A stretch of 64,000 nt of DNA, taken from the NCBI RefSeq assembly GCF_028994805.1, contig NZ_JAJQQP010000009.1, positions 62,001 through 126,000 of the forward strand, in the 5' to 3' direction. Made by a program: the position numbers and the translations under genes. Position 1 is the stretch's first letter. Every line of letters begins with the position of its first letter. This DNA is from Promicromonospora iranensis (lineage in GTDB: Bacteria; Actinomycetota; Actinomycetes; Actinomycetales; Cellulomonadaceae). Below the pieces are notes generated by a model. It saw nothing but the letters and a program-made list of their open reading frames with translations, did no database searches and had not been told where the DNA came from. Below are positions 8,572 through 25,659 of this stretch, one piece after another.

Positions 8572-9531
8572 CTACCGCCGGGCCAGGGCCTCGATCTCCG
8601 CCACCGCGCTGTCGCCGAGCCGGCTCAGCTCGTTGCCCATGGACCCCGCGACGTGCGGTGTGAGCAGCACGTTCGGCAGGCTCCACAGGGGGTGGTCAGC
8701 CGGCAGCGGCTCGGGTTCGGTGACGTCGAGGACGGCGTCGATCCGGCCGGTGGAGAGCTCGGCGACGAGCGCGTCGGTGTCCACCAGGGCCCCGCGTGCG
8801 GTGTTGATCAGCGTGGCGCCGTCGGGCAGGAGGGCGAGGCGGCGTGCGTCGATCATCTGCCTGGTCTCCGGGATGTCGGGCGCGTGGACCGAGACCACCG
8901 TGGACGTGGCCATGAGCTCGTCGAGCTCGACCTTGCGCACGCCGAGCCGGTGCGCGTCGTCGTCGGTCAGGTAGGGGTCCGAGACCGACACGACCAGGTC
9001 GAAGGGGCGCAGCAGCTCGATGGTCTGCCGGCCGATGCACGAGGCGCCGACGAGGCCCACCCGGCGGCCGTGGTTGCCCGCCTGGGGGAACGCCTGCTCC
9101 CGGTCGATGAACGCGCGCCGCTCGGCGTAGAGCCGGGCGGAAGGCAGCGCCTGCTTGCCCGCCAGCAGGATGAGCGCGAGCGACAGCTCGGCCACCGGCC
9201 GCCCGTTGGCGGCGCGGGCGTCGGTCAGCGTCATCCGGCGCTCGCGGGCTGCGGGGCCCAGCAGGCCTGTCGCGCTCCCGCCCGTGTGCACGACGGCGCG
9301 CAGCCGGGGTGCTGCCGCCATCACGGCGTCGGTGAGGAAGCCCGCGCCCCAGCCGGTGACGAGCACGTCGCAGCGCTCGAGCGCCGTGGCCGCCTCCGGT
9401 GCGGCGAGGTCCTCGAGCACCTGTGGCCACACGTTCGCCACTGCCGCGAGCCGACGGCGGGCCGCGTCGTCGAGGAGCCGGTCCGCGAGCGCCGCCGGGC
9501 GCATGGTGAGCACTACGTCGAGTGGTTCCAT
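8572..9531 (-). CDS. D-isomer-specific 2-hydroxyacid dehydrogenase
   Basis: A 319-residue NAD(P)-dependent dehydrogenase. The cofactor-binding half contains GRRVGLVGASCIGRQTIELL; the catalytic Arg lies in INTARGALVDTDALV, the Glu region in DVTEPEPLPADHPLW and the His in VLLTPHVAGS. ATG 9531 has a good GGAGGT. Right upstream at 9556-9570 is a palindrome matching the LacI-type operators of the adjacent sugar locus, and the gene is divergent from the sugar-binding protein. It is therefore probably part of that carbohydrate regulon, perhaps acting on an acidic sugar catabolite (inference). Confidence 0.88.
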   Translation of the reverse strand: MEPLDVVLTMRPAALADRLLDDAARRRLAAVANVWPQVLEDLAAPEAATALERCDVLVTGWGAGFLTDAVMAAAPRLRAVVHTGGSATGLLGPAARERRMTLTDARAANGRPVAELSLALILLAGKQALPSARLYAERRAFIDREQAFPQAGNHGRRVGLVGASCIGRQTIELLRPFDLVVSVSDPYLTDDDAHRLGVRKVELDELMATSTVVSVHAPDIPETRQMIDARRLALLPDGATLINTARGALVDTDALVAELSTGRIDAVLDVTEPEPLPADHPLWSLPNVLLTPHVAGSMGNELSRLGDSAVAEIEALARR

Positions 9532-9555
9532 CTCTACCTCCTGGTCCGGTGTGCA

Positions 9556-9570
9556 GGATAACGTTGTCCC
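9556..9570. promoter_or_regulatory. LacI-type operator O1 (hydroxyacid dehydrogenase promoter)
   Basis: GGATAACGTTGTCCC, a near-perfect palindrome centred on CG. It lies about 25 bases upstream of the dehydrogenase start and belongs to a set of five similar sites in 9.5-19.1 kb. Confidence 0.75.
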
Positions 9571-9620
9571 ATTGCGGAGGGAAGCCCGACGTGCGGCGAG
9601 GTTGGAAATGGCGCGGTCAC

Positions 9621-9648
9621 TTGACACGCGGGACCAGGCCGCTAATCT
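9621..9648 (+). promoter_or_regulatory. Promoter of the ABC sugar importer operon
   Basis: TTGACA at 9621-9626, a 16-base spacer and TAATCT at 9643-9648 form a near-consensus vegetative promoter. The LacI-type operator O2 starts at its -10 box, so bound repressor would block initiation. Confidence 0.7.
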
Positions 9649-9662
9649 GAGAACGTTTTCCT
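9648..9662. promoter_or_regulatory. LacI-type operator O2 (sugar-binding protein promoter)
   Basis: TGAGAACGTTTTCCT, sharing the AACGTT core with O1 and O3. It overlaps the end of the -10 element and is about 50 bases upstream of the binding-protein ATG. Confidence 0.72.
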
Positions 9663-9713
9663 GCGCCGACCAGAGCGCAGCTCAAGGATGAGTACATCTC
9701 AAAGGGGAGAACC

Positions 9714-11051
9714 ATGATCAGATCACGCGCCCGCTGGGCGACCGCCGGGCTGGCCGTCACGGCGCTGACGGGCCTGAGTGCCTGCTCGGCTGCCGACGCG
9801 CCCACCACCGCCACGGGCGGTGGCGCCGAGGCCGCGGGCCCGGTGACCATCGAGGTCTGGGGGTGGAACGCCGAGACCGGCAAGCAGATCGTCGAGGCGT
9901 TCAACGAGGCACAGGACGACGTCACGGTGGAGTACGTGCTGCAGGCCAGCAACACCGCCACGCAGACCAACTTCCAGAACGCCATGGAGGCAGGCTCCGG
10001 CGTCCCCTGCCTGGTGCAGGGCTTCGCGCCGCTGACCACCATGGTCGTCAACGGCTGGGCGCAGGACATCACCGAGCAGGTCGAGGGCTCCGCCGACCTC
10101 TACAACGAGGGCTCGCTCGCCGCGGCCCAGGTCGACGGCCGGTACTACGGCCTGCCGAGCGGTTCCGACGGCCAGTTCTTCATCGTGAACCAGAAGACGT
10201 TCGACACGTACGACGTCGAGGTCCCCGCCACCTGGGACGAGTTCGTCGAGACCGGGCGCGAGCTCAAGAAGCACGGCGTCGACATCACCAACATGGCCGG
10301 TGAGGACCCCAGCGGCCTGATGGCCCTGGCCCAGCAGGCGGGTGCCGAGTGGTTCCGGATCGACGGCGACCAGTGGGTGGTCAGCTTCACGGACGACGCC
10401 ACGCTCGCCGCGGCCGACGTGTACCAGCCGCTCATCGACGAGGACCTGGTGTCCAACCAGACCTACATGGACCGGCCGGCCCTGTACGAGTACTTCGACT
10501 CCGGCAAGATGGCATCGACGACCACGCAGTGGTGGTCGCTCACGGGCCTGCAGACCGGCCTGGTCGACTCGGCGGGCGACTGGTCGGCGCACCCGATCCC
10601 GCAGTTCTCGGACGCGGCGGAGCCCGTCACGCCCGGCCGCACGCTCCCCTCGTTCGTCCCCGCGGGCTGCGAGAACCCCGAGGCCGCCGTGGCCTACTCG
10701 AACTGGCTCACCACGCCCGAGGCGATCGAGTCGGGCCGCAACGCCGAGACCGGCGCCGTCAGCTTCCCGACGCAGATCCCCGACCCCTCGGACTACGTCG
10801 ACGAGGTGGTCCCGGAGGGCCTCTTCGTGGACGACAAGGCCGCGGGCGAGGAGATCATCGCCGCCCAGGAGAACGTGATCGGCAAGTTCGAGCTCGGGCC
10901 GAACTACGACGCCTGGTTCCCGGAGCTGCAGGACCAGTGGGGCAAGGCCGTCGCCGGCGAGATCACGCTCGAGGAAGCGCTGACCGCTGTGCAGGAGTTC
11001 GTCGCGTCCGACCTGGACAGCAAGGGCATCTCCTACACCGTCGCCGAGTGA
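9714..11051 (+). CDS. ABC sugar importer, solute-binding lipoprotein
   Basis: A 445-residue extracytoplasmic binding protein of the carbohydrate (family 1 SBP) type. The signal sequence ends in a lipobox (LTGLSAC, Cys about residue 24) followed by an Ala/Gly/Thr linker; mature sequence begins VTIEVWGWNAETGKQIVEAFN, usual for this family. Further family features are a central MALAQQAGAEWF segment and a late VAYSNWLTTPEAIE segment. It is the first gene of a three-gene importer with the two permeases downstream. No ATPase gene is present; actinomycete sugar importers commonly share one MsiK-type ATPase encoded elsewhere. Operator O2 lies at its promoter. The ligand is probably an oligosaccharide released by the enzymes encoded downstream. 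Confidence 0.92.
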   Translation: MIRSRARWATAGLAVTALTGLSACSAADAPTTATGGGAEAAGPVTIEVWGWNAETGKQIVEAFNEAQDDVTVEYVLQASNTATQTNFQNAMEAGSGVPCLVQGFAPLTTMVVNGWAQDITEQVEGSADLYNEGSLAAAQVDGRYYGLPSGSDGQFFIVNQKTFDTYDVEVPATWDEFVETGRELKKHGVDITNMAGEDPSGLMALAQQAGAEWFRIDGDQWVVSFTDDATLAAADVYQPLIDEDLVSNQTYMDRPALYEYFDSGKMASTTTQWWSLTGLQTGLVDSAGDWSAHPIPQFSDAAEPVTPGRTLPSFVPAGCENPEAAVAYSNWLTTPEAIESGRNAETGAVSFPTQIPDPSDYVDEVVPEGLFVDDKAAGEEIIAAQENVIGKFELGPNYDAWFPELQDQWGKAVAGEITLEEALTAVQEFVASDLDSKGISYTVAE

Positions 11052-11079
11052 GCCGCTGACCCACGAGGGGAGGACGTCG

Positions 11080-12084
11080 ATGTCCGTCAACACGCAAGAC
11101 AACCACGCCGCCGTGCGCGAACCGGTACCCGGCTCGCCGCCCGGCGGGCAGCCCAGGAGCGGCTCCTCCCCTCGTGGGCGCACCCCGCGCTGGAACTGGC
11201 GCACCGCACAGAGCGTCAAGGGAGCCTCGCTCACCTTCCCGTTCCTGGCCGGCTTCACGCTGTTCGTGCTCGTGCCGGTCGGGATGGCGCTGCGCGAGAG
11301 CGTCTACACCACGAGGTCCGCGGGGGGTCTGGGCTTCGGCGGCCAGACCGTGTCCTTCGCCGGGCTGGACAACTTCGCCGCGGGTCTCGTCGACGGCAGC
11401 TTCTGGGCGGGGATGCTCAGGGTGTTCCTGTACGCCCTGGTCGTCGTCCCGCTGACCCAGGTGCTGAGCCTCGCCCTGGCTCTCCTGCTCGACGCCGCGC
11501 GGCGCCGGACCGCCGCCCGGTTCCGGATCGCGCTGCTGCTCCCGTACATGGTGCCGGGCATCGTCGCGACGATGGTCTGGATCTTCCAGTACAGCCCGAC
11601 GGTCGGGCCGCTGACGCCGTTCTTCGAGGCGTTCGGCCTCGACGTGAACTTCTTCTCCAGCTCGATGGTCTGGGTGTCGATGGGCAACCTCGCGATCTGG
11701 GGCGCGCTCGGGTTCACGATGCTGATCCTCTACGGGGCGCTCCAGTCGGTACCCCACGAGATCTTCGAGGCGGCGCGGCTCGACGGCGCGTCCGAGCTGC
11801 GGATCGCGCTGTCCATCAAGGTGCCCTTCGTCCGCGGGTCGCTGGTGCTGACGTCGCTGCTCTCGATCATCGGCACGCTGCAGCTCTTCGACCAGCCCCT
11901 GCTGTTCCGGGCCGTCACGCCCGAGACCATCACCCGGGACTTCACGCCCGCCATGATGATCTACGACCAGGCGTTCAACGTGGGCAACCTCAACTACGCC
12001 ACGGCTCTGTCGGTCATCCTCGCCCTCGTCGTCGGTGTCGCCTCCGCGATCATCTACCGCTTCATCAACAGGGAAGAGCCATGA
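11080..12084 (+). CDS. ABC sugar importer permease, MalF-like
   Basis: A 334-residue inner-membrane permease with six predicted helices after a Pro/Gly/Arg-rich cytoplasmic N-terminus (about 45 residues). The EAA loop that contacts the ATPase reads EAARLDGASELRIALSIKVP. It lies 28 bases after the binding-protein gene, and its stop overlaps the next permease start by four bases. It forms the membrane channel with that partner. Confidence 0.92.
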   Translation: MSVNTQDNHAAVREPVPGSPPGGQPRSGSSPRGRTPRWNWRTAQSVKGASLTFPFLAGFTLFVLVPVGMALRESVYTTRSAGGLGFGGQTVSFAGLDNFAAGLVDGSFWAGMLRVFLYALVVVPLTQVLSLALALLLDAARRRTAARFRIALLLPYMVPGIVATMVWIFQYSPTVGPLTPFFEAFGLDVNFFSSSMVWVSMGNLAIWGALGFTMLILYGALQSVPHEIFEAARLDGASELRIALSIKVPFVRGSLVLTSLLSIIGTLQLFDQPLLFRAVTPETITRDFTPAMMIYDQAFNVGNLNYATALSVILALVVGVASAIIYRFINREEP

Positions 12085-13025
12085 GCGACACGACACTCGT
12101 GCCCGACGCCGCCGTCGTCCCCGATCCCGTCGCCCGACCCGGACGCCGACGTCGCCGCCGGCTCGACGAGGGTTCCTCCGTGGCGGAAGCCCGCGGCTCC
12201 TCCCGCTGGGTGGTCCTCGGGGTGCTGGTCGCCCTGACGCTGTACGCCGTCGGGCCGCTGTGGTGGCTGCTCGTCGCGGCGACGAAGAACCAGCGGGAGC
12301 TGTACACCACCCACGGGCTCTGGTTCAGCCAGCTCAACCTGTGGGACAACCTGAGCACCCTGTTCACCTACCAGGACGGGATCTTCGGCCGGTGGCTGTG
12401 GAACACCGTCGTGTACGCGGGGCTCGGCTCGCTCGGGCTGACGTTCGTCGCGCTCGCGGCCGGCTACGGGATCGCCAAGTACCGGTACCGCGGGCGCGGG
12501 CTGACGATGGGCCTGATCATCGCGTCCTTCCTGATCCCCGGCTCGCTGATGATCGTGCCGAGCTTCATCCTCTTCGTGAAGCTGGGCATGTACGACACGA
12601 TCTGGGCGATGATCCTGCCCGGCATGTTCGGGTCGTTCTCCGTCTACCTGGCCAAGGTCTACGCGGAGGGCGCGGTGCCGTCCGAGCTCATGGAGGCCGC
12701 CCGCATCGACGGCGCGGGGGAGTACCGGATCTTCTTCTCCATGGGGCTGCGCCTGCTGTCGACCGCGGGCGCGACGATCTTCCTGCTGCACTTCGTGGCC
12801 TCGTGGAACACGTTCATGTGGCCGCTGGTCTTCCTCAAGGGGGTCGACAAGTGGCCGGTGATGCTCGGCATGTACTCGTGGCTGCAGCGAGGGATGGACA
12901 GCACGGTGGACCTCACCAGCCTCGTGGTCACCGGGTCGCTCGTCTCGACCATCCCGATGGTGGTGCTCATGATCGCGATGCAGCGCTACTGGCGTTCGGG
13001 CGTCACGCTCGGGAGCCTCAAGTAG
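12081..13025 (+). CDS. ABC sugar importer permease, MalG-like
   Basis: A 314-residue permease with six membrane helices. The N-terminus is charged (PGRRRRRRLDEG) and the EAA loop reads MEAARIDGAGEYRIFFSMG. A FLLHFVASWNTFMWPLVFLKG segment is typical of MalG-type subunits. It is translationally coupled to the upstream permease (ATGA overlap). The gene ends eight bases before the convergent lacI gene. Confidence 0.92.
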   Translation: MSDTTLVPDAAVVPDPVARPGRRRRRRLDEGSSVAEARGSSRWVVLGVLVALTLYAVGPLWWLLVAATKNQRELYTTHGLWFSQLNLWDNLSTLFTYQDGIFGRWLWNTVVYAGLGSLGLTFVALAAGYGIAKYRYRGRGLTMGLIIASFLIPGSLMIVPSFILFVKLGMYDTIWAMILPGMFGSFSVYLAKVYAEGAVPSELMEAARIDGAGEYRIFFSMGLRLLSTAGATIFLLHFVASWNTFMWPLVFLKGVDKWPVMLGMYSWLQRGMDSTVDLTSLVVTGSLVSTIPMVVLMIAMQRYWRSGVTLGSLK

Positions 13026-13033
13026 TGCCCGGG

Positions 13034-14053
13034 TCAGCCCTTCGGCGGGGCGGTCGACTCCCGCACCACCAGCTGCGGCGCCGTGACCGACGACGCAGCA
13101 TCGCCGTCGCCGTCGATCACCTGCGAGAGCAGGCCGAACGCGCGGGTACCGAGGTCCTCGAAGTCCTGGTCCACGGTGGTCAGGGACGGCTGCCACAGGG
13201 CGACGAGCGGCTGGTCGTCGAAGCCGATCACGGAGATGTCGCCCGGGACGTCGAGGCCGCGGTCGGACAGTGCCCGCATGAGGCCCAGCGCGATGTCGTC
13301 GTTGGCGCAGAAGACCGCGGTGACGTCGTTCATCCCGGCGATCCGCTCGCCCCAGCGGTAGCCGGAGCTCGCGTCCCAGTCGGCCCGCATGATCTGCGGG
13401 ACCGGCGCACCGGCGGCGCCCAGGGCCGCACGCCAGCCGTCGGTGCGGCCCGAGTGCTTGCCCTCGGTCGGGCCGGCGATGTGGTGGACCGTCCGGTGCC
13501 CGAGATGGAGCAGGTAGTCGGTCGCCTGGCGACCCGCGGTGCGCTCGTCGATCAGCGCCGCCGGGACCGTGCCCGTGCGGCGCGAGCCGCCGCCGGCGAC
13601 CACCACGGGCAGGCCCTCGGGCAGCGCCTTGGCGGCGTTGATACCCGCCCGGTCGAACTCGAGCACGATCACGCCCGCCGTCGGCTGGGCCAGCGTGAGA
13701 TCGATGGCGGCGCGCACGTGCTCGTCGTCGCCGGACTCCACGACGGTGATCGACACGGTCATGCCGGCCCGCCGGGCGGCCGTCTCCACCCCCTGCAGCG
13801 TGCGGGCGTAACCGTAGTTGGCGGTCGCGCCCGCGAGCACGGACACGAGCGTGCGCCGGCCCGAGCGCATCGAGCGGGCGGCGCCGTTCGGGCGGTACCC
13901 GAGGGCCTGCACCGCCTCGTGCACACGCTGGGCGAGCTCGGGCGCCACGTACTTCGAGCCGTTCAGGACCCGGGAGACGGTGGGTACCGAGACCTCCGCC
14001 GCCCTGGCGACATCGGCGAGGACAGGGGCTCGGTACGACTTCGGACTGGCCAT
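13034..14053 (-). CDS. LacI-family transcriptional regulator of the carbohydrate locus
   Basis: A 339-residue repressor. The N-terminal HTH and hinge read VLADVARAAEVSVPTVSRVL and ALGYRPNGAARSMRSG; the rest is a periplasmic-binding-protein-like ligand domain (VIVLEFDRAGINAAKALP, VTAVFCANDDIALGLMRAL, DISVIGFDDQPLVALWQPSLTTV). It is divergent from the first glycoside hydrolase gene, and operator O3 lies between the two starts, predicting autoregulation. The same palindrome occurs at the importer, dehydrogenase and lyase promoters, so this protein is the natural candidate for local control. The effector is presumably a sugar released from the polymer. Confidence 0.92.
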   Translation of the reverse strand: MASPKSYRAPVLADVARAAEVSVPTVSRVLNGSKYVAPELAQRVHEAVQALGYRPNGAARSMRSGRRTLVSVLAGATANYGYARTLQGVETAARRAGMTVSITVVESGDDEHVRAAIDLTLAQPTAGVIVLEFDRAGINAAKALPEGLPVVVAGGGSRRTGTVPAALIDERTAGRQATDYLLHLGHRTVHHIAGPTEGKHSGRTDGWRAALGAAGAPVPQIMRADWDASSGYRWGERIAGMNDVTAVFCANDDIALGLMRALSDRGLDVPGDISVIGFDDQPLVALWQPSLTTVDQDFEDLGTRAFGLLSQVIDGDGDAASSVTAPQLVVRESTAPPKG

Positions 14054-14072
14054 GAGCCGAGCATACGACAGC

Positions 14073-14087
14073 TGATAACGTTTTCCC
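14073..14087. promoter_or_regulatory. LacI-type operator O3 (lacI / glycoside hydrolase divergent promoter)
   Basis: TGATAACGTTTTCCC lies between the lacI start (14053) and the GH43 start (14105). It shares the AACGTTTTCC core with O2 and the GATAACG half with O4 and O5. Confidence 0.78.
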
Positions 14088-14104
14088 CATCTGAGGAGAG
14101 TTGA

Positions 14105-15061
14105 GTGCCCACCCACCCGCGCGCCCCCCGTGGCGTCATCGCACCAGGACGGCTCTTCACCGACGACCAGGGTGCCGTCGCCCAGCTGCACGGCGTCGGC
14201 ATCCAGAGGTTCGGCGACCTGTTCTACGCCTGGGGCGAGGACAAGACGAACGGCGGGACCTTCGGGGGAGTGGCCTGCTACTCGTCACCCGACCTCGCGA
14301 CCTGGACCGCGCACGGGCACGCCCTGCCCGTCTCGCCCGACGTCCCCGACCTCGCCCCGGGCCGGGTGATCGAACGACCCAAGGTGCTGCGCAACCCGGC
14401 CGGGACGTACGTGATGTTCCTGCACGTCGACTCCGGCGACTACGCCGACGCCCGGGTGGGCTGGGCGGTCGCCGACCGGCCCGAGGGCCCATACACCTAC
14501 CTGCGCAGCGAGCGCCCGCTCGGCAACATCAGCCGGGACATCGGCGTGTTCGCGGACGACGACGGCACCGGGTACCTGCTGTCCGAGGACCGGGAGCACG
14601 GCCTGCACGTCTACCGGCTGTCCGCGGACTACCTGGCGGTCGAGGAGATCGTCGCGACCACGCTCACACCGCCCAGCGACCACCCGGCGGGTCCGCACGG
14701 GTACGAGTCGCCGGCGCTCGTCAAGGCGGACGACCTCTACTACCTGTTCGGCTCCGACCTGTCGGGCTGGTCCACGAACGACAACAAGGTGGCGACGGCG
14801 CCGTCGCCCGCCGGTCCGTGGAGCGACTGGGCCGACTTCGCGCCCCCGGGCTCGGCCACGTGCGACTCCCAGACCTCGACGGTCGTGACCGTGCACGGCT
14901 CCGAGACCACGAGCCACGTGTACGTCGGCGACCGGTGGGACCGGGACGACCTGTTCCACTCCGCGCCCGTCTGGCTCCCCCTGCGGATCGCCGACGGCGT
15001 CGCACGGCTCGAGTGGCGCGACACCTGGACCATCGATCCCCGGACGGGGGTGATCGCATGA
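14105..15061 (+). CDS. GH43 family protein, exo-beta-1,3-galactanase-like (GH43_24 type)
   Basis: A 318-residue five-bladed beta-propeller hydrolase without a signal peptide, thus probably intracellular. The early segment VGIQRFGDLFYAWGEDKTNGG, the VIERPKVLRNPAGTYVMFLH block and DLYYLFGSDLSGW resemble galactan 1,3-beta-galactosidases of GH43. The usual N-terminal catalytic Asp of GH43 (an xDP motif) is not seen, which agrees with the known replacement of that base in the galactanase subfamily. The GTG start follows GAGGAGAG. Its stop overlaps the next gene by four bases. Likely role: removing galactose from imported beta-1,3-galacto-oligosaccharides; subfamily and substrate are inferred. Confidence 0.78.
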   Translation: MPTHPRAPRGVIAPGRLFTDDQGAVAQLHGVGIQRFGDLFYAWGEDKTNGGTFGGVACYSSPDLATWTAHGHALPVSPDVPDLAPGRVIERPKVLRNPAGTYVMFLHVDSGDYADARVGWAVADRPEGPYTYLRSERPLGNISRDIGVFADDDGTGYLLSEDREHGLHVYRLSADYLAVEEIVATTLTPPSDHPAGPHGYESPALVKADDLYYLFGSDLSGWSTNDNKVATAPSPAGPWSDWADFAPPGSATCDSQTSTVVTVHGSETTSHVYVGDRWDRDDLFHSAPVWLPLRIADGVARLEWRDTWTIDPRTGVIA

Positions 15062-17259
15062 CCGTCACCCTTCCCGGGCTCGAGGACAGCACCGAGCTGC
15101 GGATCGAGTGGGGCAACGACGTCCTCCGCGTGGCGATAGCCCACGGCCCGCACACCGCGCCACGGCTGGTGGCGCTGTGGCACGTGGCGGAGGAGCGGCC
15201 GGACCTGGCAGGTCTGCGCCGCTCGGCGCTCCCGGTGCTGGAGGTGACGGTGCTCGGCGACGGCCGCTCCGGGACGTCGGGCAAACGACACGTCGACGGC
15301 GCGGCGGCCCAGCGGATGCGGCTCGTCGGGCTGGACGAGACCGCGGAGGAGGGCACCGCCGGGAAGGCCGCCCCCGTCCGCCGCCTCCTGCTGCACCTCG
15401 CCGACGCCGAGTCCGGCCTGCGTGCCACCGTGCACTACGAGCTCGCCGACACGGTCCCCGTGCTGCGGACCTGGGCGGAGCTGTCGGCCGACCACGAGCT
15501 CGTGCTCGACCACGTCACCACCGGCGTCGTCTCCGGGCTCGGGCACGCCGCCCGCTGGGAGACGGAGCTCGCCGTGTGGGAGGCGGCCAACCCCTGGAGC
15601 GGCGAGTTCCGCTGGCACCGGTCCACGCTCGCCGAGCGCGGCCTGTACGACGTCGGCATGGTGCGGTTCGGCCAGGTCGGGTCGAAGAACCGGATCAGCC
15701 TCACCTCGACCGGTGCCTGGTCCACGTCCGAGCACCTGCCCATGGGCCTGGTCGAGGACACCCGCACCGGCCGGCTGCTCGCCTGGCAGGTCGAGACCAG
15801 CGGCGCCTGGCACACCGAGCTCGGCGACCGGTACGGCGACGTCTACCTCGCCGCCATGGGACCGACCGCGCACGAGCACCAGTGGGCCGGCCGCCTCGAC
15901 GCCGGCACCGGGTTCAGCAGCGCCCCGGTGAGTCTCGCGATCGTCCCCGGTGCCGCCGCCGGACCCGCGGCGACCCTGGACGCCGTCGCCGCGGCGCTCA
16001 CCGCGCACCGCCGCCGCACCCGGCGGCCCCACCCCGACCACGACACGCTGCCCGTCGTCTACAACGACTTCCTGAACACCCTCATGTCCGACCCGACCAC
16101 CGAGCGCGAGCTCCCTCTGATCGAGGCGGCCGCCGACCTCGGCGCCGAGTACTACGTGATCGACGCCGGCTGGTACGACGACGAGCACGGCGGCTGGTGG
16201 GACTCCGTGGGCCAGTGGGAACCCTCGACCACCCGGTTCCCCGACGGCGGCCTGGGCGGCCTCATCGACCGCATCCGTGCCCACGGCATGCGCCCGGGCC
16301 TCTGGCTCGAACCCGAGGTGGTCGGCGTGCGCAGCCCCGTCGCCCGCACGCTCCCCGACGCGGCGTTCTTCCAGCGCCACGGCCACCGCGTCGCCGAGTG
16401 GGGCAGGTACCAGCTCGACCTGCGCCACCCCGCCGCACGCGCGCACCTCGACACGGTGGTCGACCGGCTCGTGACCACGTTCGGCCTCGCCTACCTCAAG
16501 CTCGACCACAACGTCGACATCGGCCCCGGCACCGACGCAGGCACCGGCGAGGCACCAGGCACCGGCCTGCTCGAGCACGGCCGCGCCTTCCTCGACTGGG
16601 CAGGCGCCGTCATGGACCGCCACCCCGGCCTCGTCATCGAGGCCTGCGCGGCCGGCGGGTCGCGCACCGACGCGGCCACCGGCCGCGTCTTCCCCGTCCA
16701 GTCCGTCACCGACCAGCAGGACTACCTCGCCACCCCGCCCGTCGCCGCGGCCGCCCCCCTCGCTCTCCCGCCCGAGCAGACCGGGATCTGGGCCTGCGTC
16801 GACGGCACCATGGACCGCGAACAGCTCGCCTTCTCCCTCGTCACGGCGCTCCTGGCCCGGGTACACCTGACCGGCCGCGTCGACACCCTTGACACCGACC
16901 AGCGGGCGGTCGTCCGGGAGGCGCTCGCGGTGTACCGGGACCTGCGGTCCGCCGTCGGGCGCTCGGTCCCCGTGTGGCCGCTCGGCCTGCCCGGCTGGCG
17001 CGACCCCTGGATCGTCCAGGGCGCGCGCGACGGCGACCATCTCTACCTCGCGGTCTGGCGCCGGGGCGACACGGACGACGGCGCCCCCGACACCCTGCGG
17101 GTGCCGCTGCCCGGCCGGGTCACGGACGAGGTCGTGGAGGTGCTGTACCCGCGCTGGGGCGGCGAGTCCGTCGCCGTGGTCGACGACGGCGGGGCGCTGG
17201 AGCTCAAGCTCCCGGCCCTGACCTCGGCGCGGCTGCTGCGGGTCCGGGTGACCTCGTGA
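15058..17259 (+). CDS. GH36-family alpha-galactosidase-like protein
   Basis: A 733-residue cytoplasmic enzyme of alpha-galactosidase type. The N-terminal beta-supersandwich is followed by a TIM barrel with YVIDAGWYDDEHGGWW (substrate-binding Asp and Trp), GMRPGLWLEPEVVG, the nucleophile motif YLKLDHNVD (Asp483) and the acid/base region QSVTDQQDY (Asp552). In classical GH36 the nucleophile motif is K-W-D-x-N and the following loop is C-x-G-G-G; here they are KLDHN and EACAAGGSR. It is therefore a divergent member and specificity may not be plain alpha-galactoside. It is translationally coupled on both sides to GH43 genes. Confidence 0.82.
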   Translation: MTVTLPGLEDSTELRIEWGNDVLRVAIAHGPHTAPRLVALWHVAEERPDLAGLRRSALPVLEVTVLGDGRSGTSGKRHVDGAAAQRMRLVGLDETAEEGTAGKAAPVRRLLLHLADAESGLRATVHYELADTVPVLRTWAELSADHELVLDHVTTGVVSGLGHAARWETELAVWEAANPWSGEFRWHRSTLAERGLYDVGMVRFGQVGSKNRISLTSTGAWSTSEHLPMGLVEDTRTGRLLAWQVETSGAWHTELGDRYGDVYLAAMGPTAHEHQWAGRLDAGTGFSSAPVSLAIVPGAAAGPAATLDAVAAALTAHRRRTRRPHPDHDTLPVVYNDFLNTLMSDPTTERELPLIEAAADLGAEYYVIDAGWYDDEHGGWWDSVGQWEPSTTRFPDGGLGGLIDRIRAHGMRPGLWLEPEVVGVRSPVARTLPDAAFFQRHGHRVAEWGRYQLDLRHPAARAHLDTVVDRLVTTFGLAYLKLDHNVDIGPGTDAGTGEAPGTGLLEHGRAFLDWAGAVMDRHPGLVIEACAAGGSRTDAATGRVFPVQSVTDQQDYLATPPVAAAAPLALPPEQTGIWACVDGTMDREQLAFSLVTALLARVHLTGRVDTLDTDQRAVVREALAVYRDLRSAVGRSVPVWPLGLPGWRDPWIVQGARDGDHLYLAVWRRGDTDDGAPDTLRVPLPGRVTDEVVEVLYPRWGGESVAVVDDGGALELKLPALTSARLLRVRVTS

Positions 17260-18944
17260 GCGGCCTCGTGAGCGGCCGTCCGGTCGGCCCTCCGAAGGGC
17301 CCGGTGCGCAGGGCGGTCAACCCGGTGGTGCGCGGCTTCGCCCCGGACCCGTCGGCGATCCGGGTGGGGGACTGGTACTACCTCGCGACCAGCTCGTTCG
17401 AGTGGTTCCCGACCATCCCGCTGTACCGCTCGCGGGACCTCGCGGACTGGGAGCCGGCCGGGTCGGTCGGCACCGCGGTTCCCGGCCGGTCCCTTCTCGG
17501 GGTGCCCGACTCGGGCGGGATCTGGGCGCCCGCCCTCAGCCACGCGGACGGCGTGTTCTGGGTCGTGTACTCGATCGTCCGCTCGCTCGGCACCCGGCAC
17601 TTCGACCTGGAGACCTACCTCTGCACGGCACCCGACGTCGGCGGCCCGTGGTCGGAGCCCGTGCGCCTGCCCGGCCACGGGTTCGACCCGTCGCTGCTGC
17701 ACCACGACGGCCGGCACTACCTGCTCAACCTGCAGAACGACTCGCGGGTCGGCGGACGACGGTTCGACGGCATCGTGCTCACCGAGCTGGAGGTACCGCT
17801 GACGGGCGGCGGCGTGCCCGACACGGCTCGGGTGCGCGCCGTGGGCCCGACCAGCCTGCTGCTGCAGCGCGACAACCTGGTCGAGGGGCCCAAGATCACC
17901 GTCAAGGACGGCTGGTTCTACCTGCTGCTGGCCGAGGGAGGCACCGGCGTCGAGCACGGGGTGCTCGTCGCACGGAGCCGGTCGCTGACCGGGCCCTACG
18001 AGGTCGACGACGTCCCGCTGCTCACGTCCCGCGACGACCCGGCGGTCCCGCTGCAGAAGGCCGGGCACGGCGAGCTGGTCCGGACGCCGTCGGGCGAGTG
18101 GTACCTGACGCACCTGGCGTCCCGGCCCCTGGAGACGCCGTCCGGGCCGCGCAGCACGCTCGGCCGCGAGACGGCGGTGCAGCGCGTGGTCTGGGTCGAC
18201 GGCTGGCCCCGGCTGGCCCAGGGCGGCTGGCACCCGGCCACGGAGGTCGAGGTCCCGGACGTGACCGAGCTGGGCGGCGTCGAACAGCGCGGTGGTCTCG
18301 AGATCGCTCCAGCCTGGCCCTGGTCGACGCTGCGGGAGCCCGCAGGGGACTGGGTGCAGCCCGTCCCCGACCAGCCTGGCGTGCTGCGGCTGCGCGGCCG
18401 GCAGTCCGCCGAGTCGCTGTGGCAGCAGTCGCTCCTGGCTCAGCGCCTGACCGAGCACCACGCCGAGGTGGAGGTGACCGTCGACGCCGAGCCCACCACG
18501 TTCACCCAGTCGGCGGGGCTGGTGCTCTGGTACAGCACGACGTCGTACTACCAGCTTCACGTCACGTGGACGGAGCCCGAGGGCGAGCCCCAGGCCGGCC
18601 AGCAGTGGGCGGGGAACCAGGGCCGCCGCGTGCTGGTCCTGACCCACGGCCACCCGGACGGCGCCCGGGTGCTGGATACCGTGGCCCTCGTCGACGGCCC
18701 GGTCCGCCTGCGCGCGCAGATCGACGACGTCACGGCCCGGCTGTGGTCGGCGAGCGACGGCGGGCCGTGGGCGCAGATCGGCCCGGACGTGGACTTCAGC
18801 GAGCTCTCCGACGACTTCGGCCCGCGCCTGCGATTCACGGGCGCCTTCGTGGGGATCAGCGCGGTCGACCTCGTCGACGGCGCCTTCACCGCCGACTTCT
18901 CCGACTGGACCCTTCGGTACAGAAGCACGATGCCGGGCGACTGA
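17256..18944 (+). CDS. GH43 beta-xylosidase / alpha-L-arabinofuranosidase-like protein
   Basis: A 562-residue two-domain enzyme: a five-bladed propeller (to about residue 330) and a C-terminal beta-sandwich (from about 350) typical of XynB3-like GH43 proteins. Catalytic residues are visible: base Asp31 in FAPDPSA, pKa-tuning Asp144 in HGFDPSLL, acid Glu210 in VEGPKITVKDGWFYLLLAEG. No signal peptide, so intracellular. The GTG start overlaps the GH36 stop by four bases; a second in-frame GTG lies at 17268. It should trim xylose or arabinose from imported oligosaccharides. In context with a galactanase and an alpha-galactosidase, arabinose side chains of arabinogalactan are plausible. Confidence 0.85.
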   Translation: MSGLVSGRPVGPPKGPVRRAVNPVVRGFAPDPSAIRVGDWYYLATSSFEWFPTIPLYRSRDLADWEPAGSVGTAVPGRSLLGVPDSGGIWAPALSHADGVFWVVYSIVRSLGTRHFDLETYLCTAPDVGGPWSEPVRLPGHGFDPSLLHHDGRHYLLNLQNDSRVGGRRFDGIVLTELEVPLTGGGVPDTARVRAVGPTSLLLQRDNLVEGPKITVKDGWFYLLLAEGGTGVEHGVLVARSRSLTGPYEVDDVPLLTSRDDPAVPLQKAGHGELVRTPSGEWYLTHLASRPLETPSGPRSTLGRETAVQRVVWVDGWPRLAQGGWHPATEVEVPDVTELGGVEQRGGLEIAPAWPWSTLREPAGDWVQPVPDQPGVLRLRGRQSAESLWQQSLLAQRLTEHHAEVEVTVDAEPTTFTQSAGLVLWYSTTSYYQLHVTWTEPEGEPQAGQQWAGNQGRRVLVLTHGHPDGARVLDTVALVDGPVRLRAQIDDVTARLWSASDGGPWAQIGPDVDFSELSDDFGPRLRFTGAFVGISAVDLVDGAFTADFSDWTLRYRSTMPGD

Positions 18945-18978
18945 GTCCCCGACTGACTCTTGTGTTGTCCGGTACGTC

Positions 18979-19010
18979 GGGATAACGTATTCCCGGGATA
19001 ACGATATCCC
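18979..19010. promoter_or_regulatory. Tandem LacI-type operators O4 and O5
   Basis: Two directly abutting 16-base palindromes, GGGATAACGTATTCCC (18979-18994) and GGGATAACGATATCCC (18995-19010), about 75 bases upstream of the large lyase gene. Each is perfectly symmetric apart from one central pair. They match O1-O3 and place the secreted lyases under the same regulator. The following leader to 19083 contains short GC-rich inverted repeats. Confidence 0.8.
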
Positions 19011-19083
19011 GCTCACGACGAGGTGACTACCGCGCGACCACGGTCGCGTGCGGCCGCAGTGCTGCGGCCCTGGAGGGAATCCG

Positions 19084-22000
19084 ATGAGGCAACGCACGTC
19101 CAGGCTGCGTTCGAGTGCGGCCGCACTGATCAGCACGGTGGCCCTGGTGGTGGCCGGGTTCGTCCCGGCGTCCGCCGCGGCTGACGCCGGGACGGCCGAG
19201 CTGCCGGCCGACCCGCTCGTCAAGATCCACGAGACCGTGAGCGACGCCGGGTTCGCGCATCCCGGCGTCGGCCTGACCGCGGACAACCTCGAGAACATGC
19301 GGACCCAGGTGCTCGCCGGCGTGGAGCCGTGGGCGAGCTACTACGACGCCATGACGCAGACCAGGTACGCGTCCGCCACCTTCAAGGCGTCGATCCAGGG
19401 CCCGACCGACGAGCAGCCGACCAGCACGGCGTACGACACGGCGAGCATGCGCGGACGGCAGCACACCGACAGCCTCGGCGCCATGACGCAGGCACTGATG
19501 TACCTGGTCACCGGCGAGGAGCTGTACCGGGCGAACGCGCTGCACGTGATCCGCACCTGGAGCAGCCTCGACCCCGCCCGGTACAAGTACTTTCCCGACG
19601 CCCACATCCACACCGGCGTCCCCCTCTACCAGACCCTGGTCGCCGCCGAGATCATCCGCTCGACCGAGCCGGTGAACGACGAGCTCGACGGGTACGACCT
19701 GCGCTGGACGGAGCGCGACCAGCAGCGGATCGAGGGCAACCTCGTCCGCCCGGTGCTCGACACGTTCCTGTTCTCCGAGAACCGGCTGTGGAACCAGCAC
19801 CTGTACGGCGTGATCGGCATGGTGGCCGCGGCGATCTTCCTCGACGACGCCGACCTCTACGCCGAGCGCGTCGAATGGTTCACCGTGAACGCCGGCTACA
19901 AGAGCGAGCACACGATCAACGGCGGGGACGTCAACGGTTCGCTGGCCGCCGTCTTCCGCGAGATCGAGGTGGACGACCCGCGCAACCCCTACGGCAAGAG
20001 CTTCGTCCAGCACCTGGAGATGGGCCGCGACCAGGCGCACGCCGAGGGCGACGTCGACCTCCTGGCCGCCCTGGCCCGCATCGTGCACAACCAGGGCACG
20101 CGGGTCGACCCCGCCGCCGGCACCGTCTCGACCGCGTCGGACGCCGTCAGCCCGTACGCGTTCCTGGACAACCGCATCCTCGAAGGCGGCGACGTCTTCG
20201 CGGCCTTCATGATGGGCGAGGAACCGCCCTACATCGACACGTCCGGGGGAGCGGGCAAGCTCGCCGAGGCCTACCGCGGACGCCTGCGCGAGCCGCTCAA
20301 CGAGCTCTACTACCAGTACGAGTACGTCGCGGGCGTGGACGTCGAGGCGGAGGCGCCGTTCGTGGCCGAGATGTACCGGCACGGCGACGGGCCCCTGTAC
20401 CGCTACGGCACCGGGGTCTCGAACTTCTGGAACGAGAGCGGCTCGGACTACACCGGCGCCGAGTACTGGGTGGCGTTCCCGCCGGAGCTCGCCGACCAGG
20501 ACGTCACCGTCCCCGCCGTCGGCGACGGGCCCGAGCTGCCCCTGGAGAAGTTCGGCCACACCCTCGGCAAGGGCGCCAGGCAGCTGACCGACGACGCAGG
20601 CGAGCGCTTCGTCCGGCTCGACGCCAGGAAGGACGACGCCCAGGTCGCCGTGCGCCGCGTCGTCTACGCCGACCGCAGCCGCACCGCGCTGGTCGGGGTG
20701 CGGGTCCGCACCCACGCCACCGCGACCCTCGAGGTCTCCCGGACCTCGTACGGCGAGCCGTTCACCACCGTCCAGCTCCCGGACACCGGTGGACGGTGGC
20801 GGCACGTCTGGTTCGACGTCGCCACGGCGAAGGTGCCGTCAGCCGGAGCCAACCTGGTGGTGCTCGGTGCGACCGGCGGCAGGACCCACGTGGACGTCGA
20901 GAGCGTGCTCGCCGACGCCAACGGGACCCTCGCCCCGCCGACGTTCAGTGACGGCGCCTCCCTGGACGCCGTGGCGGTGGCCGGCGAGCCCTATGCGCGG
21001 GACCTCGGGGTGACCGACCCCGACGGCGACTTCACGCTGGCGCTCCAGGACGCGCCGCGCGGGGCGACGGTCTCGGCCGACGGCACGTTCACGTGGACGC
21101 CGGACGGCAGGCGTGACGTCGAGGACCTCGTCGTCGTCGCCTCGGACGACCGGGCCGACACCGCGTTGCCCGTGTCCCTCACCGTCGCACCGGACCGTAC
21201 CGCCGCGGTGGACGCGCTCCAGGCCGGGCTGGAGGCGCCGGAGGCGTACACGACCGCCAGCTGGCGGTCGTTCGCCGACGCGCGGGCGGCCGCGCTGGAC
21301 GGCGTGGACGGCTCGGGCGCGGCGGAGTTCGGTGCCCTGCTGGAGCGTCTGCGGCTCGCCGTCGCCGACCTGGAGCTGCTCGACCCGCGCCTACCTGACG
21401 GCACGCTCGACTTCTCCCGCATCGTCTCCTCGGAACGGATCACGCCGACGACCCTCCTGGCCCTCACGGACGGGGACAGCCAGACCACCTGGGGAGACCT
21501 GCGGGTGCCGAGCGTCGTGCTCGACCTCGGGCCGGGCTACCGCGTCCGGGCCGACGGCTTCGGGTTCCTCGCCCGGGACACGTTCCCCAACCGGGCCGAG
21601 GGCACGAACGTCTACGGGTCGTCCGACGGCGAGGACTGGACGCTGCTGACCGAGCACCCCAACGTGGGCGACGACACCGAGATCGAGCAGGTGGCGGTGC
21701 GCGCGGCGGAGCGGGACAGCGTGTTCCGATACCTCAAGCTCCAGATCGACGAGCCCGGCGCGCCGACCGATCCCGCCTCGCCTGTCGTCATCTGGACCCT
21801 CGCGGACTTCCGGATCGACGGCGAACGGATCGAGGCGGACCTGGACCTGCTGCTCGCCGAGGCGCAGGCGGCGGACCTGTCGGGCTGGTCGCGGGGGTCA
21901 GTAGTGCTGTTCACGAGGGAGATCGAGGCGGTCCGCACCGCCTCCGCTGAGGAGGGGGCGGACACGAAGGCGCTCGCACAGCGCGTCCTTGCCGCCTGGG

Positions 22001-22641
22001 ACCTGCTGGAACGGCCGGCACCCGAGCTCGCCGACGTCGCGCACGCGTGGGTCACCGCGAGCACGCCGTCGTGGGACGGCAGCCGGGACGCCGCGGCCAA
22101 CGGCTGGGCGATGTTCGACGGTGACCCGGGCACCTTCACCGATACGAAGCAGGCCAACGGCTGGGTCCAGGTCGTTCCCGACGACGACACCACCTTCCAC
22201 GTCGAGGCCGTGCGGTACCTGCCCCGTTCCACCCACGTGAGCCGCGCCGACGGCGTCCAACTCCAGCGATCCGACGACGGCGGGCAGACCTGGCAAACCT
22301 TCGCCACGATCGGTGGCGCGACGGCGGGCTGGAACCAGATCGACCTGCCCGAGCCGGTCGAGACGGCAGCGATCCGGGTGCTGGCCTCCTCGGGCAACAC
22401 CAATCTGGCCGAGGTCGCGCTCGTCACCAGCACCGTGGACCGCACAGGGCTCGACCTGTACCTGGCGGAGACCGCGGAGCTGGCCGCGAGCGACTGGACC
22501 ACCGCGTCCTGGGAGCGCCTCGCCGCCGCGCGCGAGGCGGGGATCGCCCTCCGGGCCGACGGCGCCGACCCCGACCAGGAGGAGGTGGACACCGCCACCG
22601 ACGAGCTCGCCGCGGCCGTGGCCGCGCTCGAAGCGGCCTGA
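19084..22641 (+). CDS. Large secreted polysaccharide lyase (alginate-lyase superfamily) with carbohydrate-binding modules
   Basis: A 1185-residue secreted protein. A signal peptide (to about AASAA, residue 32) precedes an (alpha/alpha)n-type lyase domain of about residues 60-480 of the alginate_lyase (AlgL-like) superfamily: HTDSLGAMTQALMYLVTGEE, ENRLWNQHLYGVIGM and MGRDQAHAEGDVDLLAALAR. A beta-rich segment (about 500-620), an Ig/cadherin-like domain (625-710), and alternating FIVAR helical modules and F5/8-type (discoidin-like) domains to the end complete it; three FIVAR-like segments and two discoidin-like domains can be counted. The C-terminus lacks an LPXTG anchor. It should bind and depolymerise an uronic-acid-containing polysaccharide outside the cell. 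Exact PL family (PL38-like is one candidate) and substrate are not determinable here. ATG 19084 follows GGAGGG; operators O4/O5 are upstream. Confidence 0.78.
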   Translation: MRQRTSRLRSSAAALISTVALVVAGFVPASAAADAGTAELPADPLVKIHETVSDAGFAHPGVGLTADNLENMRTQVLAGVEPWASYYDAMTQTRYASATFKASIQGPTDEQPTSTAYDTASMRGRQHTDSLGAMTQALMYLVTGEELYRANALHVIRTWSSLDPARYKYFPDAHIHTGVPLYQTLVAAEIIRSTEPVNDELDGYDLRWTERDQQRIEGNLVRPVLDTFLFSENRLWNQHLYGVIGMVAAAIFLDDADLYAERVEWFTVNAGYKSEHTINGGDVNGSLAAVFREIEVDDPRNPYGKSFVQHLEMGRDQAHAEGDVDLLAALARIVHNQGTRVDPAAGTVSTASDAVSPYAFLDNRILEGGDVFAAFMMGEEPPYIDTSGGAGKLAEAYRGRLREPLNELYYQYEYVAGVDVEAEAPFVAEMYRHGDGPLYRYGTGVSNFWNESGSDYTGAEYWVAFPPELADQDVTVPAVGDGPELPLEKFGHTLGKGARQLTDDAGERFVRLDARKDDAQVAVRRVVYADRSRTALVGVRVRTHATATLEVSRTSYGEPFTTVQLPDTGGRWRHVWFDVATAKVPSAGANLVVLGATGGRTHVDVESVLADANGTLAPPTFSDGASLDAVAVAGEPYARDLGVTDPDGDFTLALQDAPRGATVSADGTFTWTPDGRRDVEDLVVVASDDRADTALPVSLTVAPDRTAAVDALQAGLEAPEAYTTASWRSFADARAAALDGVDGSGAAEFGALLERLRLAVADLELLDPRLPDGTLDFSRIVSSERITPTTLLALTDGDSQTTWGDLRVPSVVLDLGPGYRVRADGFGFLARDTFPNRAEGTNVYGSSDGEDWTLLTEHPNVGDDTEIEQVAVRAAERDSVFRYLKLQIDEPGAPTDPASPVVIWTLADFRIDGERIEADLDLLLAEAQAADLSGWSRGSVVLFTREIEAVRTASAEEGADTKALAQRVLAAWDLLERPAPELADVAHAWVTASTPSWDGSRDAAANGWAMFDGDPGTFTDTKQANGWVQVVPDDDTTFHVEAVRYLPRSTHVSRADGVQLQRSDDGGQTWQTFATIGGATAGWNQIDLPEPVETAAIRVLASSGNTNLAEVALVTSTVDRTGLDLYLAETAELAASDWTTASWERLAAAREAGIALRADGADPDQEEVDTATDELAAAVAALEAA

Positions 22642-22707
22642 AGCCTGGCCGTCTCTTTGATGTCCGCTCTCCATGCCCGTGTCGATGACGACAGAACGGA
22701 AGCTGCG

Positions 22708-24021
22708 ATGACTTCACGTGAAGAGCACCCGAACACCGGCCGGGACGGCGCCTCGCGCCGGGCCTTCCTCGCCGGATCGTCCCTGGCCCTCCTGGCCGGG
22801 ATCTCCGGCAGCGCCCTGGCCGCACAGGCGGCGGCAGCTGCCCCGGCGAACCCGCACGGTGCCCCGCTCGGCGGTGCGGCGGGCGGCGCGGCGCGGCGCG
22901 CGTCCGCCCTCGCCTACGCCCACCCCGGCATGCAGCACACGGCGGCCCAGCTCGACGCCGCCGCCCGCCGGGTAGCGGCCGGCACCCAGCCGTGGAAGGG
23001 CGGGTGGGACCGCCTCGTCGCGAACGGCCGCTCGTCCGCGACGTGGCAGCCGCGCCCGCTCGCGGACGTGATCCGCGGCGGCGACGGCCAGAACTACGCC
23101 CAGATGTACCTCGACATCCACGCCGCCTACCAGAACGCCCTGCGGTGGCGCGTGTCGGGCGACGAGGCGCACGGGGCCGCCGCGGTGCGCATCCTCAACG
23201 CCTGGTCCGGCACCCTGCGGTCGCTCGGCGGTAACGCCGACCGGTTCCTGGCCTCCGGCATCTACGGGTACCAGTTCGCCAACGCCGCCGAGCTCGTCCG
23301 TGACCGGTCGGACTTCGACCTCGGGCGGTTCCGGAACATGCTGCTCGGCATCTTCCACCCGATGAACGAGCACTTCCTGACCAACCACAACGACGCGGTG
23401 ATCACGAACTACTGGGCCAACTGGGACCTGTGCAACATGGCGTCGATCCTCGCTATCGGGATCTTCGCCGACCGCGCGGACCTGGTCGGGCGCGCCGTCG
23501 ACTACTTCGAGGACGGCGCGGGGAACGGCTCGATCAGGAACGCGGTGCCGTTCCTGCACGCCGAGGACGGCGGCCTCGGGCAGTGGCAGGAGTCGGGCCG
23601 CGACCAGGCGCACACGATCATGGGCGTCGGCCTCATGGCCGCGTTCTGCGAGATGGCCTGGAACCAGGGAATCGACTGCTACGGCTACGACAGCAACCGG
23701 TTCCTCAAGGGCGCGCAGTACGTCGCCAAGTACAACCTGGGCAACGCCGTGCCGTTTGCCGACTACACCTGGCAGTCCGGTCCGAACACGACCGCCCCGC
23801 ACGTCGGGTGGCAGACCCACACCCAGATCAGTGCGGCGTCCCGCGGGCAGGCGCGGCCGGTGTGGGCGATGATCCTGGCGCACTACTCGGGGAGGAAGGG
23901 TCTGGAGGCGCGCTGGGTGCGGCAGATCGCCGAGTCGATCCGTCCTGAGGGCGGTGGCGGCGACTACGGCACGGGGTCGGGCGGGTTCGACCAGCTCGGG
24001 TTCGGCACACTCATGTACTGA
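22708..24021 (+). CDS. Secreted polysaccharide lyase (alginate-lyase superfamily), Tat-type signal
   Basis: A 437-residue protein with a Tat-like leader (SRRAFLAGSSLALLAG) and a low-complexity Ala/Gly stretch before the mature domain. The catalytic-fold markers are FLTNHNDAVITNYWANWDLC, EDGGLGQWQESGRDQAHTIM and GVGLMAAFCEMAWNQG. The GRDQAH and NQG elements align with the MGRDQAHAEGDVDLLAALAR...HNQG region of the large lyase just upstream, so the two are paralogues. The gap of 66 bases has no terminator, so they are probably cotranscribed. This one lacks accessory modules and may act on shorter or soluble substrate. Confidence 0.78.
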   Translation: MTSREEHPNTGRDGASRRAFLAGSSLALLAGISGSALAAQAAAAAPANPHGAPLGGAAGGAARRASALAYAHPGMQHTAAQLDAAARRVAAGTQPWKGGWDRLVANGRSSATWQPRPLADVIRGGDGQNYAQMYLDIHAAYQNALRWRVSGDEAHGAAAVRILNAWSGTLRSLGGNADRFLASGIYGYQFANAAELVRDRSDFDLGRFRNMLLGIFHPMNEHFLTNHNDAVITNYWANWDLCNMASILAIGIFADRADLVGRAVDYFEDGAGNGSIRNAVPFLHAEDGGLGQWQESGRDQAHTIMGVGLMAAFCEMAWNQGIDCYGYDSNRFLKGAQYVAKYNLGNAVPFADYTWQSGPNTTAPHVGWQTHTQISAASRGQARPVWAMILAHYSGRKGLEARWVRQIAESIRPEGGGGDYGTGSGGFDQLGFGTLMY

Positions 24022-25366: not shown

Positions 25367-25438
25367 GCGGATGTAGCTCAGTGGTAGAGCATCACCTTGC
25401 CAAGGTGAGGGTCGCGGGTTCAAGTCCCGTCATCCGCT
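25367..25438 (+). tRNA. tRNA-Gly (anticodon GCC), copy 1
   Basis: A 72-nt cloverleaf: acceptor GCGGATG/CATCCGC, D-arm AGCTCAGTGGTAGAGC, anticodon stem CACCT/AGGTG around TGCC-containing loop (TTGCCAA; anticodon GCC), T-arm GGGTTCAAGTCCC. It is identical to copy 2 at 28617-28688. Confidence 0.97.
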
Positions 25439-25503
25439 CGGAAACGCCGCTCTCGTAGATCTTCGGCTGATGAGAGCACCCAAGGTTGTAGGTTTGACCC
25501 AGC

Positions 25504-25574
25504 GGTGGGTTGGCCGAGTGGCGAGGCAGCGGCCTGCAAAGCCGTATACACGGGTTCGAATCCCGTACCCACCT
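25504..25574 (+). tRNA. tRNA-Cys (anticodon GCA), copy 1
   Basis: A 71-nt cloverleaf: acceptor GGTGGGT/ACCCACC, anticodon loop CTGCAAA (GCA), T-arm GGGTTCGAATCCC. It differs from copy 2 at two positions, one in the D-arm (GTGGC versus GAGGC) and one next to the anticodon arm (GTATAC versus GTACAC). Confidence 0.96.
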
Positions 25575-25587
25575 CGCATTGCAGCAC

Positions 25588-25659
25588 GGGCGATTGGCGC
25601 AGCGGTAGCGCGCTTCCCTGACACGGAAGAGGTCACTGGTTCGATCCCAGTATCGCCCA
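25588..25659 (+). tRNA. tRNA-Val (anticodon GAC), copy 1
   Basis: A 72-nt cloverleaf: acceptor GGGCGAT/ATCGCCC, anticodon stem CTTCC/GGAAG around CTGACAC (GAC), T-arm GGTTCGATCC. It is identical to copy 2 at 28788-28859. Confidence 0.97.

Follow-up and report, generated by a model that had tools for sequence, protein, structure and literature searches.

We analysed a window of 64,000 nucleotides (bases 62001–126000 of contig 31) from the 5.84 Mb genome of Promicromonospora iranensis. A locus in this window encodes ten proteins: a LacI-family regulator, the three components of an ATP-binding cassette (ABC) importer, three glycoside hydrolases (GHs), two secreted lyase-like proteins (Ly1 and Ly2) and a dehydrogenase. 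Judging from the predicted operators, the importer, GHs, lyase-like proteins and dehydrogenase very probably constitute one LacI regulon. The features are listed below by window position. Of the relatives named, G002, G003 (Promicromonospora sp. AC04), G004 (P. soli) and G008 (P. panici) belong to the same genus, and G164 is an Isoptericola.

8572..9531, minus strand: D-2-hydroxyacid dehydrogenase family gene (PF02826, 4.5e-49); ATG at 9531 after CCAGGAGG
9555..9570, no strand: predicted operator 1, AGGATAACGTTGTCCC, between the dehydrogenase and the importer; counterparts in G002, G003 and G004, weaker in G008
9621..9648, plus strand: importer promoter, sigma-70-like, read from the sequence (TTGACA at 9621, 16-base spacer, TAATCT at 9643)
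9647..9662, no strand: predicted operator 2, CTGAGAACGTTTTCCT, sharing the final two bases of the importer −10; counterparts in G002, G003, G004 and G008
9714..11051, plus strand: ABC importer solute-binding protein (PF01547, 1.2e-22; signal peptide by eye)
11080..12084, plus strand: ABC importer permease A (PF00528, 3.2e-07)
12081..13025, plus strand: ABC importer permease B (PF00528, 5.5e-10)
13034..14053, minus strand: LacI-family regulator (PF00356, PF13377)
14072..14087, no strand: predicted operator 3, CTGATAACGTTTTCCC, between lacI and the galactanase-type gene; kept in G002, G003, G004, G008, G038 and Isoptericola
14105..15061, plus strand: GH43 no. 1, exo-beta-1,3-galactanase type (best solved structure 5flw, 3.2e-89)
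15058..17259, plus strand: GH36, beta-L-arabinopyranosidase-like (NF053652, 522 bits, cut-off 1100; PF02065)
17250..18944, plus strand: GH43 no. 2, XynB beta-xylosidase type with a GH43_C2 domain (PF04616, PF17851; 1yrz, 1.1e-119; start codon not settled)
18979..18994, no strand: predicted operator 4, GGGATAACGTATTCCC, in a tandem pair with operator 5 that is kept in G002, G003, G004 and G008
18995..19010, no strand: predicted operator 5, GGGATAACGATATCCC, abutting operator 4
19084..22641, plus strand: Ly1, secreted lyase-like protein 1 (PF05426, 22.3 bits, cut-off 22.2; C-terminal F5/8C domain PF00754, 7.4e-14; signal peptide by eye)
22708..24021, plus strand: Ly2, secreted lyase-like protein 2 (PF05426, 42 bits; SRRAFLA Tat-type signal by eye)

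All five palindromes reported in the initial annotation were present within one base of its positions, and genes, directions and palindrome placement were as it described, except that the last gene (Ly2) has no operator of its own in the window at a matrix cut-off of 15 bits. That gene starts 66 bases after the Ly1 gene, with which it is probably co-transcribed; in several relatives the unlinked gene is preceded by an operator of its own. Each predicted operator is a 16-bp palindrome with a CG centre. Operator 2 occupies a classical repressor position, overlapping the end of the −10 element, and operator 3 lies 18 bases upstream of the lacI start, where it may serve autoregulation. Even palindromes with a central CG, proximity to start codons and autoregulation have been described as the rule for the LacI family (PMC4052901). 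The regulator itself has both a helix-turn-helix and a periplasmic-binding-like effector domain.

The consensus GGGATAACGTTATCCC and a five-site matrix were built from the window sites, which makes the window's own scores circular and the relatives the independent test. The genome-wide operator search that the initial annotation had called for placed GGGATAACGTTATCCC at three positions with up to two mismatches, all three in the locus, and at six with up to three mismatches, four of them in the locus; the backward control pattern gave none. The two off-locus places (three mismatches) fall inside open reading frames. If six places were dropped at random, the probability of at least four in this 14.5 kb would be 6e-10, a descriptive figure only, the consensus having been derived from the same sites. 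Operator 2 (9647) has five mismatches to GGGATAACGTTATCCC and was accepted because it is conserved in relatives. A first search pattern, GATAACGNNNNTTTTCC, was dropped as mis-specified (its 15 matches, counted over both strands, all fell outside the window).

Operator conservation, and regulon membership by operator placement, were computed directly. The four Promicromonospora relatives have a tandem pair before Ly1, one site at the lacI/galactanase gene and a pair before the importer, the second importer site being weak in G008. Unlinked lyase-2 (Ly2-like) copies in G003, G004, G008 and contig 94 of G076 are each preceded by an operator, 20 to ~400 bases from the called start. The Isoptericola sites lie on four contigs, before lacI/GH43/GH36/GH43, the dehydrogenase (66% identical to the window protein), Ly1 (68%) and one paralogue each of Ly1 and lyase 2; the dehydrogenase and Ly1 share a contig of just 7.7 kb, too short to show the true linkage. 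Sites were found before a GH36, an importer, a Ly1 paralogue and lyase 2 in Arthrobacter. Genes adjoining operators in relatives also include GH51, GH31, GH95 and a BAD_1527-like arabinofuranosidase (159 bits, cut-off 500). For a wider survey, 80 lyase-2 loci were kept out of at least 559 matched stretches encoding a relative. At 17 bits or more, the five-site matrix yielded 23 matches in these loci (18 before or at the start of a gene of the set, five elsewhere) against one in the reversed sequence. Across 22 regions including the window, several of them chosen because a site was already known there, the counts were 49 and zero. Four of the 80 loci (L075, L082, L084 and L085), accounting for seven of the 23 matches, repeat stretches in the 22 regions.

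Orthologues of the LacI protein, 77–96% identical, were found in G002, G003, G004, G008, G038, G047 and G076, and the stretch VSVPTVSRVL is identical in all nine ortholog rows with a full N-terminus. Among 148 genomes, eight (own included) encode a LacI of at least 80% identity, and all eight have sites at up to two mismatches (26 sites, one of them inside an open reading frame on contig 45 of G038). The remaining 140, counting G088 with a LacI of 58% identity and no site, include 11 genomes with sites (12 sites, surroundings not inspected); the backward control produced four sites in three of the 148. Twelve further genomes were added, five for a site at a lyase-2 locus and seven for its absence there. 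Six of them have a LacI of 63–82% identity and all six have sites (22), compared with one of the six without the LacI (one site) and one site in one of the 12 for the backward control. Isoptericola, one of the seven chosen for a site-less lyase-2 locus, has the LacI and six sites. Combined, sites were present in 14 of 14 genomes with a LacI of at least 63% identity (13 of 13 once the own genome is excluded) and in 12 of 146 without. The proposal of a single LacI regulon, already made in the initial annotation, gains support because the sites are near-unique genome-wide, recur before the same genes in relatives and co-occur with an orthologous LacI. The regulon is very probably common to Promicromonospora, Myceligenerans, Isoptericola, Arthrobacter and Glycomyces.

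The families of the encoded enzymes were likewise computed directly. By sequence, GH43 no. 1 is clearly related to exo-beta-1,3-galactanases (second structure match 7bys, 5.9e-52), which bears out its earlier description as beta-1,3-galactanase-like; we take its subfamily to be GH43_24. Two other designations needed revision. GH36 had been called alpha-galactosidase-like, an activity that is not our first choice: its best alpha-galactosidase structure scored 80 bits vs 522 bits for the BAD_1528 beta-L-arabinopyranosidase profile, single-sequence and profile scores not being strictly comparable. It likely belongs to the BAD_1528 group, which together with an alpha-galactosidase group makes up bifidobacterial GH36 subfamily I (PMC10688797). 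GH43 no. 2 had been considered an arabinosidase type, now the less favoured candidate as XynB-type xylosidases score best. The three enzymes occur together in seven genomes (the own genome, G002, G003, G004, G008, G038 and G164), and two Myceligenerans copies each lack one of them. None of the ten locus proteins was identified as an importer ATPase; a shared ATPase encoded elsewhere is the usual case. By eye, signal peptides were seen in Ly1, Ly2 and the solute-binding protein only and in none of the three GHs, in keeping with the annotated layout of secreted enzymes, importer and cytoplasmic GHs.

Ly1 and Ly2 are homologous (hhalign 99.8%, 4.1e-28). The AlphaFold2 model of Ly2 (pLDDT 81) was compared with known structures using Foldseek, and all 31 matches with E < 0.001 were described as lyases or chondroitinase, including PL17 and PL38; the others are presumably PL39, PL5 and PL15. 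TM-scores by target ranged from 0.25 to 0.63 and rmsd from 5 to 7 Å. As modelled, Ly2 is built like a toroid lyase (PL38/PL17/PL5-like). The Ly1 model was poor (pLDDT 58) and its fold matches were not used; Ly1 alone gave no alignment with the PL38 stretch (hhalign probability 1.6%). A profile of 47 Ly2 relatives reached the alginate lyase BACOVA_01668, which we take to be a PL38 enzyme, at 1e-4, and hhalign of Ly2 against a single PL38 sequence gave a probability of 82.7% (E 9.5e-6). Ly2 resembles PL38 alginate lyases (BoPL38) in fold (TM-score by target ~0.6, rmsd 6–7 Å) and in keeping the aligned Asn and Arg (N238 and R298), the Asn of PL38 being charge-neutralising. Unlike them, it has Trp239 and His302 in place of the catalytic bases His243 and Tyr298 (PMC13169297), PL38 residue numbers being converted with a hand-derived offset of 21. 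Because both bases are replaced, lyase activity of Ly2 is unproven. N238, W239, R298 and H302 are invariant in 47 of 47 Ly2 rows, as are the acids D136, E195, E295 and D299. Three scanned Ly2 relatives carry AbfB or ricin-B modules, and a profile search with full-length rows returned AbfB modules and two chance-level matches. AbfB modules bind arabinofuranose. An arabinose-binding domain of this kind has been described (PMC8424115).

The dehydrogenase looks like a true regulon member, as first annotated, with an operator in the window, in G002 and in Isoptericola (a homologue behind the operator in L161). Of the 80 loci, 29 have a member of the dehydrogenase cluster no more than ~10 kb from lyase 2; many of these are Streptomyces and not independent. 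Homologues of at least 45% identity numbered one to six per 7.6–13.2 Mb genome in ten genomes, eight of them chosen for a locus holding one. The search for GH88/105 (PF07470) found none over the cut-off in the genome and one partial match (22.3 bits, against a cut-off of 26.6); the search did not extend to further families of unsaturated-uronate hydrolases. Because of this result and the association with lyase 2, an alpha-keto acid from a cleaved uronate is a reasonable candidate substrate for the dehydrogenase.

On the left, the locus is flanked by a gene for an aminotransferase class IV and a RibD_C gene, and on the right by one for a chorismate-binding enzyme. A GH64 beta-1,3-glucanase with a ricin-B lectin domain (2690–4378) lies 4 kb left of the regulon. 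A tRNA trio, Gly-Cys-Val, occurs twice (25367–25662 and 28617–28862), 3 kb apart and with the same order and anticodons, which may reflect a duplication or the scar of an integration site. An opposite-strand DUF222 gene separates GH43 no. 2 from Ly1 in P. soli (L052:12004-13758). Elsewhere in the same species (L050:15990-18676), an operator-bearing intergenic stretch separates a lyase-2 copy from three divergent genes, one gentisate-dioxygenase-like and two neighbours of it, and like-sized genes are similarly arranged in G003 and G008. We considered the bicupin gene beside lyase 2 as a KdgF-like uronate enzyme; its best match was gentisate 1,2-dioxygenase (254 bits, cut-off 442), and it was taken as a neighbour. 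The lyase-2 pair of P. panici has as its neighbour an alpha-L-rhamnosidase-like gene (L047:16325-19192; 660 bits against a cut-off of 1720) that is accompanied by its own LacI and importer genes.

Similar systems are known, and the initial view that the gene set fits no common textbook locus was too strong. The Bifidobacterium AAfase/GAfase clusters for arabinogalactan side chains (GH39, GH36, LacI, a solute-binding protein and two permeases) share with the present locus a LacI, an ABC importer, a BAD_1528-group GH36 and a secreted enzyme feeding it, and the importer of the B. pseudocatenulatum cluster is described without an ATPase gene (PMC10688797). Unlike these clusters, the present locus has no GH39 by domain scan and includes an exo-beta-1,3-galactanase and XynB-type GH43 in the operon, two lyase-like proteins, a dehydrogenase and five mapped operators. 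Bifidobacterial AauR, AbfR and BauR are likewise local LacI repressors of importers and arabinosidases in arabino-oligosaccharide regulons, with another gene set; no lyase-like protein or dehydrogenase appears in the passage of the regulon table consulted (PMC5928203). The L-rhamnose-alpha-1,4-D-glucuronate lyases of PL27 and PL42 would act on the same kind of polymer as the present locus, and none was named among the 50 Ly2 fold matches listed. Both families have a beta-propeller fold and act in gum arabic breakdown.

From the arrangement of genes and operators we infer a scheme of repression, induction, substrate and enzyme chemistry. In the absence of inducer, LacI would occupy the five palindromes and block the dehydrogenase, the importer promoter, the operon of secreted enzymes and the promoter that lacI has together with the GH operon. 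An inducer, either an oligosaccharide that has been imported or a sugar derived from one, would free LacI. Outside the cell, the toroid-type Ly1 and Ly2 would open the polymer, and the importer would bring in the fragments. The cytoplasmic exo-beta-1,3-galactanase, GH36 and XynB-type GH43 would trim these to galactose, arabinose and perhaps xylose, and uronic acid side groups would yield an alpha-keto or alpha-hydroxy acid on which the dehydrogenase probably acts. Among candidate substrates, an arabinose-rich type II arabinogalactan or gum has the best support: it fits the gene set with its exo-beta-1,3-galactanase-type GH43 and its GH36, the GH51, BAD_1527-like, GH31 and GH95 genes beside relatives' operators, and the AbfB or ricin-B modules of three Ly2 relatives. 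This supports the arabinogalactan or gum suggested initially. The best explanation of the locus, and in our judgement a probable one, is a local LacI regulon for such a polymer, either the glycan of plant arabinogalactan proteins (AGPs) or a gum.

Several observations weigh against this explanation. In G003, G004 and G008 the locus lacks the dehydrogenase and continues with the RibD_C neighbour, and three lyase-2 copies have no site: those of G022 (whose best LacI is only 42% identical), contig 74 of G038 and Isoptericola L074, its closest copy. GH36 scores far under its equivalog cut-off, no binding module was found in the window Ly2 by domain scan, both PL38 bases are replaced and GH88/105 is lacking over the cut-off. 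A long Ly2-like Streptomyces protein (L118:6696-9971) has fn3 and Ig-like domains and adjoins a GH28-like gene, and GH28-like and carboxylesterase partners at Streptomyces lyase-2 loci could point to another uronic-acid polymer. Near lyase 2, GH28-like genes and second lyase-2-like proteins each occur in 37 of the 80 loci and carboxylesterases in 25 (one member per cluster scanned), with galactanase homologues, recognised by similarity to the window protein, in nine; these neighbours leave room for a more acidic polymer.

The most sceptical alternative, that the palindromes are chance or belong to another LacI-family regulator and the genes are mere neighbours, could draw on the 40 LacI-type matches in the genome and on CG-centred palindromes being common across the family (PMC4052901). 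It is very improbable, as the sites follow unlinked orthologues, co-occur with this LacI and far exceed the reversed-sequence controls; chance in particular was rejected on the genome-wide search, the controls and the co-occurrence. The same regulon might instead serve another arabinose-decorated acidic polymer, a glucuronomannan/glucuronan-type exudate gum or pectic arabinogalactan, with the galactanase trimming only side chains. The uronate-lyase fold of secreted Ly2 with its homologue Ly1, the Streptomyces partners and the rhamnosidase-like gene beside the P. panici copies would suit this; we regard it as unlikely given that the cytoplasmic core of three GHs stays together in seven genomes and the regulon genes that were scanned include no mannan or glucuronan enzyme. 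A further question is what the secreted proteins do. That Ly1 and Ly2 are glycoside hydrolases or binding proteins on a lyase-type toroid is a real if lesser possibility, suggested by the replaced bases, the four invariant acids and the lack of GH88/105; against it stand the retained Asn and Arg, the uniformly lyase or chondroitinase fold matches and the His-based system also used by PL42 lyases (PMC13169297). In a bolder and quite doubtful version, Ly1 and Ly2 would be two unrecognised arabinogalactan-specific lyase families with His replacing Tyr, and the dehydrogenase would reduce 4-deoxy-5-keto-uronate from unsaturated glucuronate, by-passing GH88/105 and the usual aldehyde reductase.

LacI-controlled loci of the arabinogalactan type were already known; what is new here is one with two lyase-like families and a dehydrogenase partner. 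No characterised lyase-2 relative was met in the searches of the present analysis, and we found in the open-licence literature neither a lyase-2 relative linked to arabinogalactan nor the present LacI regulon, which is weak evidence of absence. Through shared operators, 'alginate lyase family' proteins common in soil actinobacteria are tied to arabinogalactan-type breakdown, and the gene set is small and directly testable, with the regulator and its predicted sites named. Should the enzymes prove to cut arabinogalactan that bears uronate, AGP and gum analysis would gain useful tools, and the dehydrogenase would hint at a so far unknown step in the breakdown of uronate.

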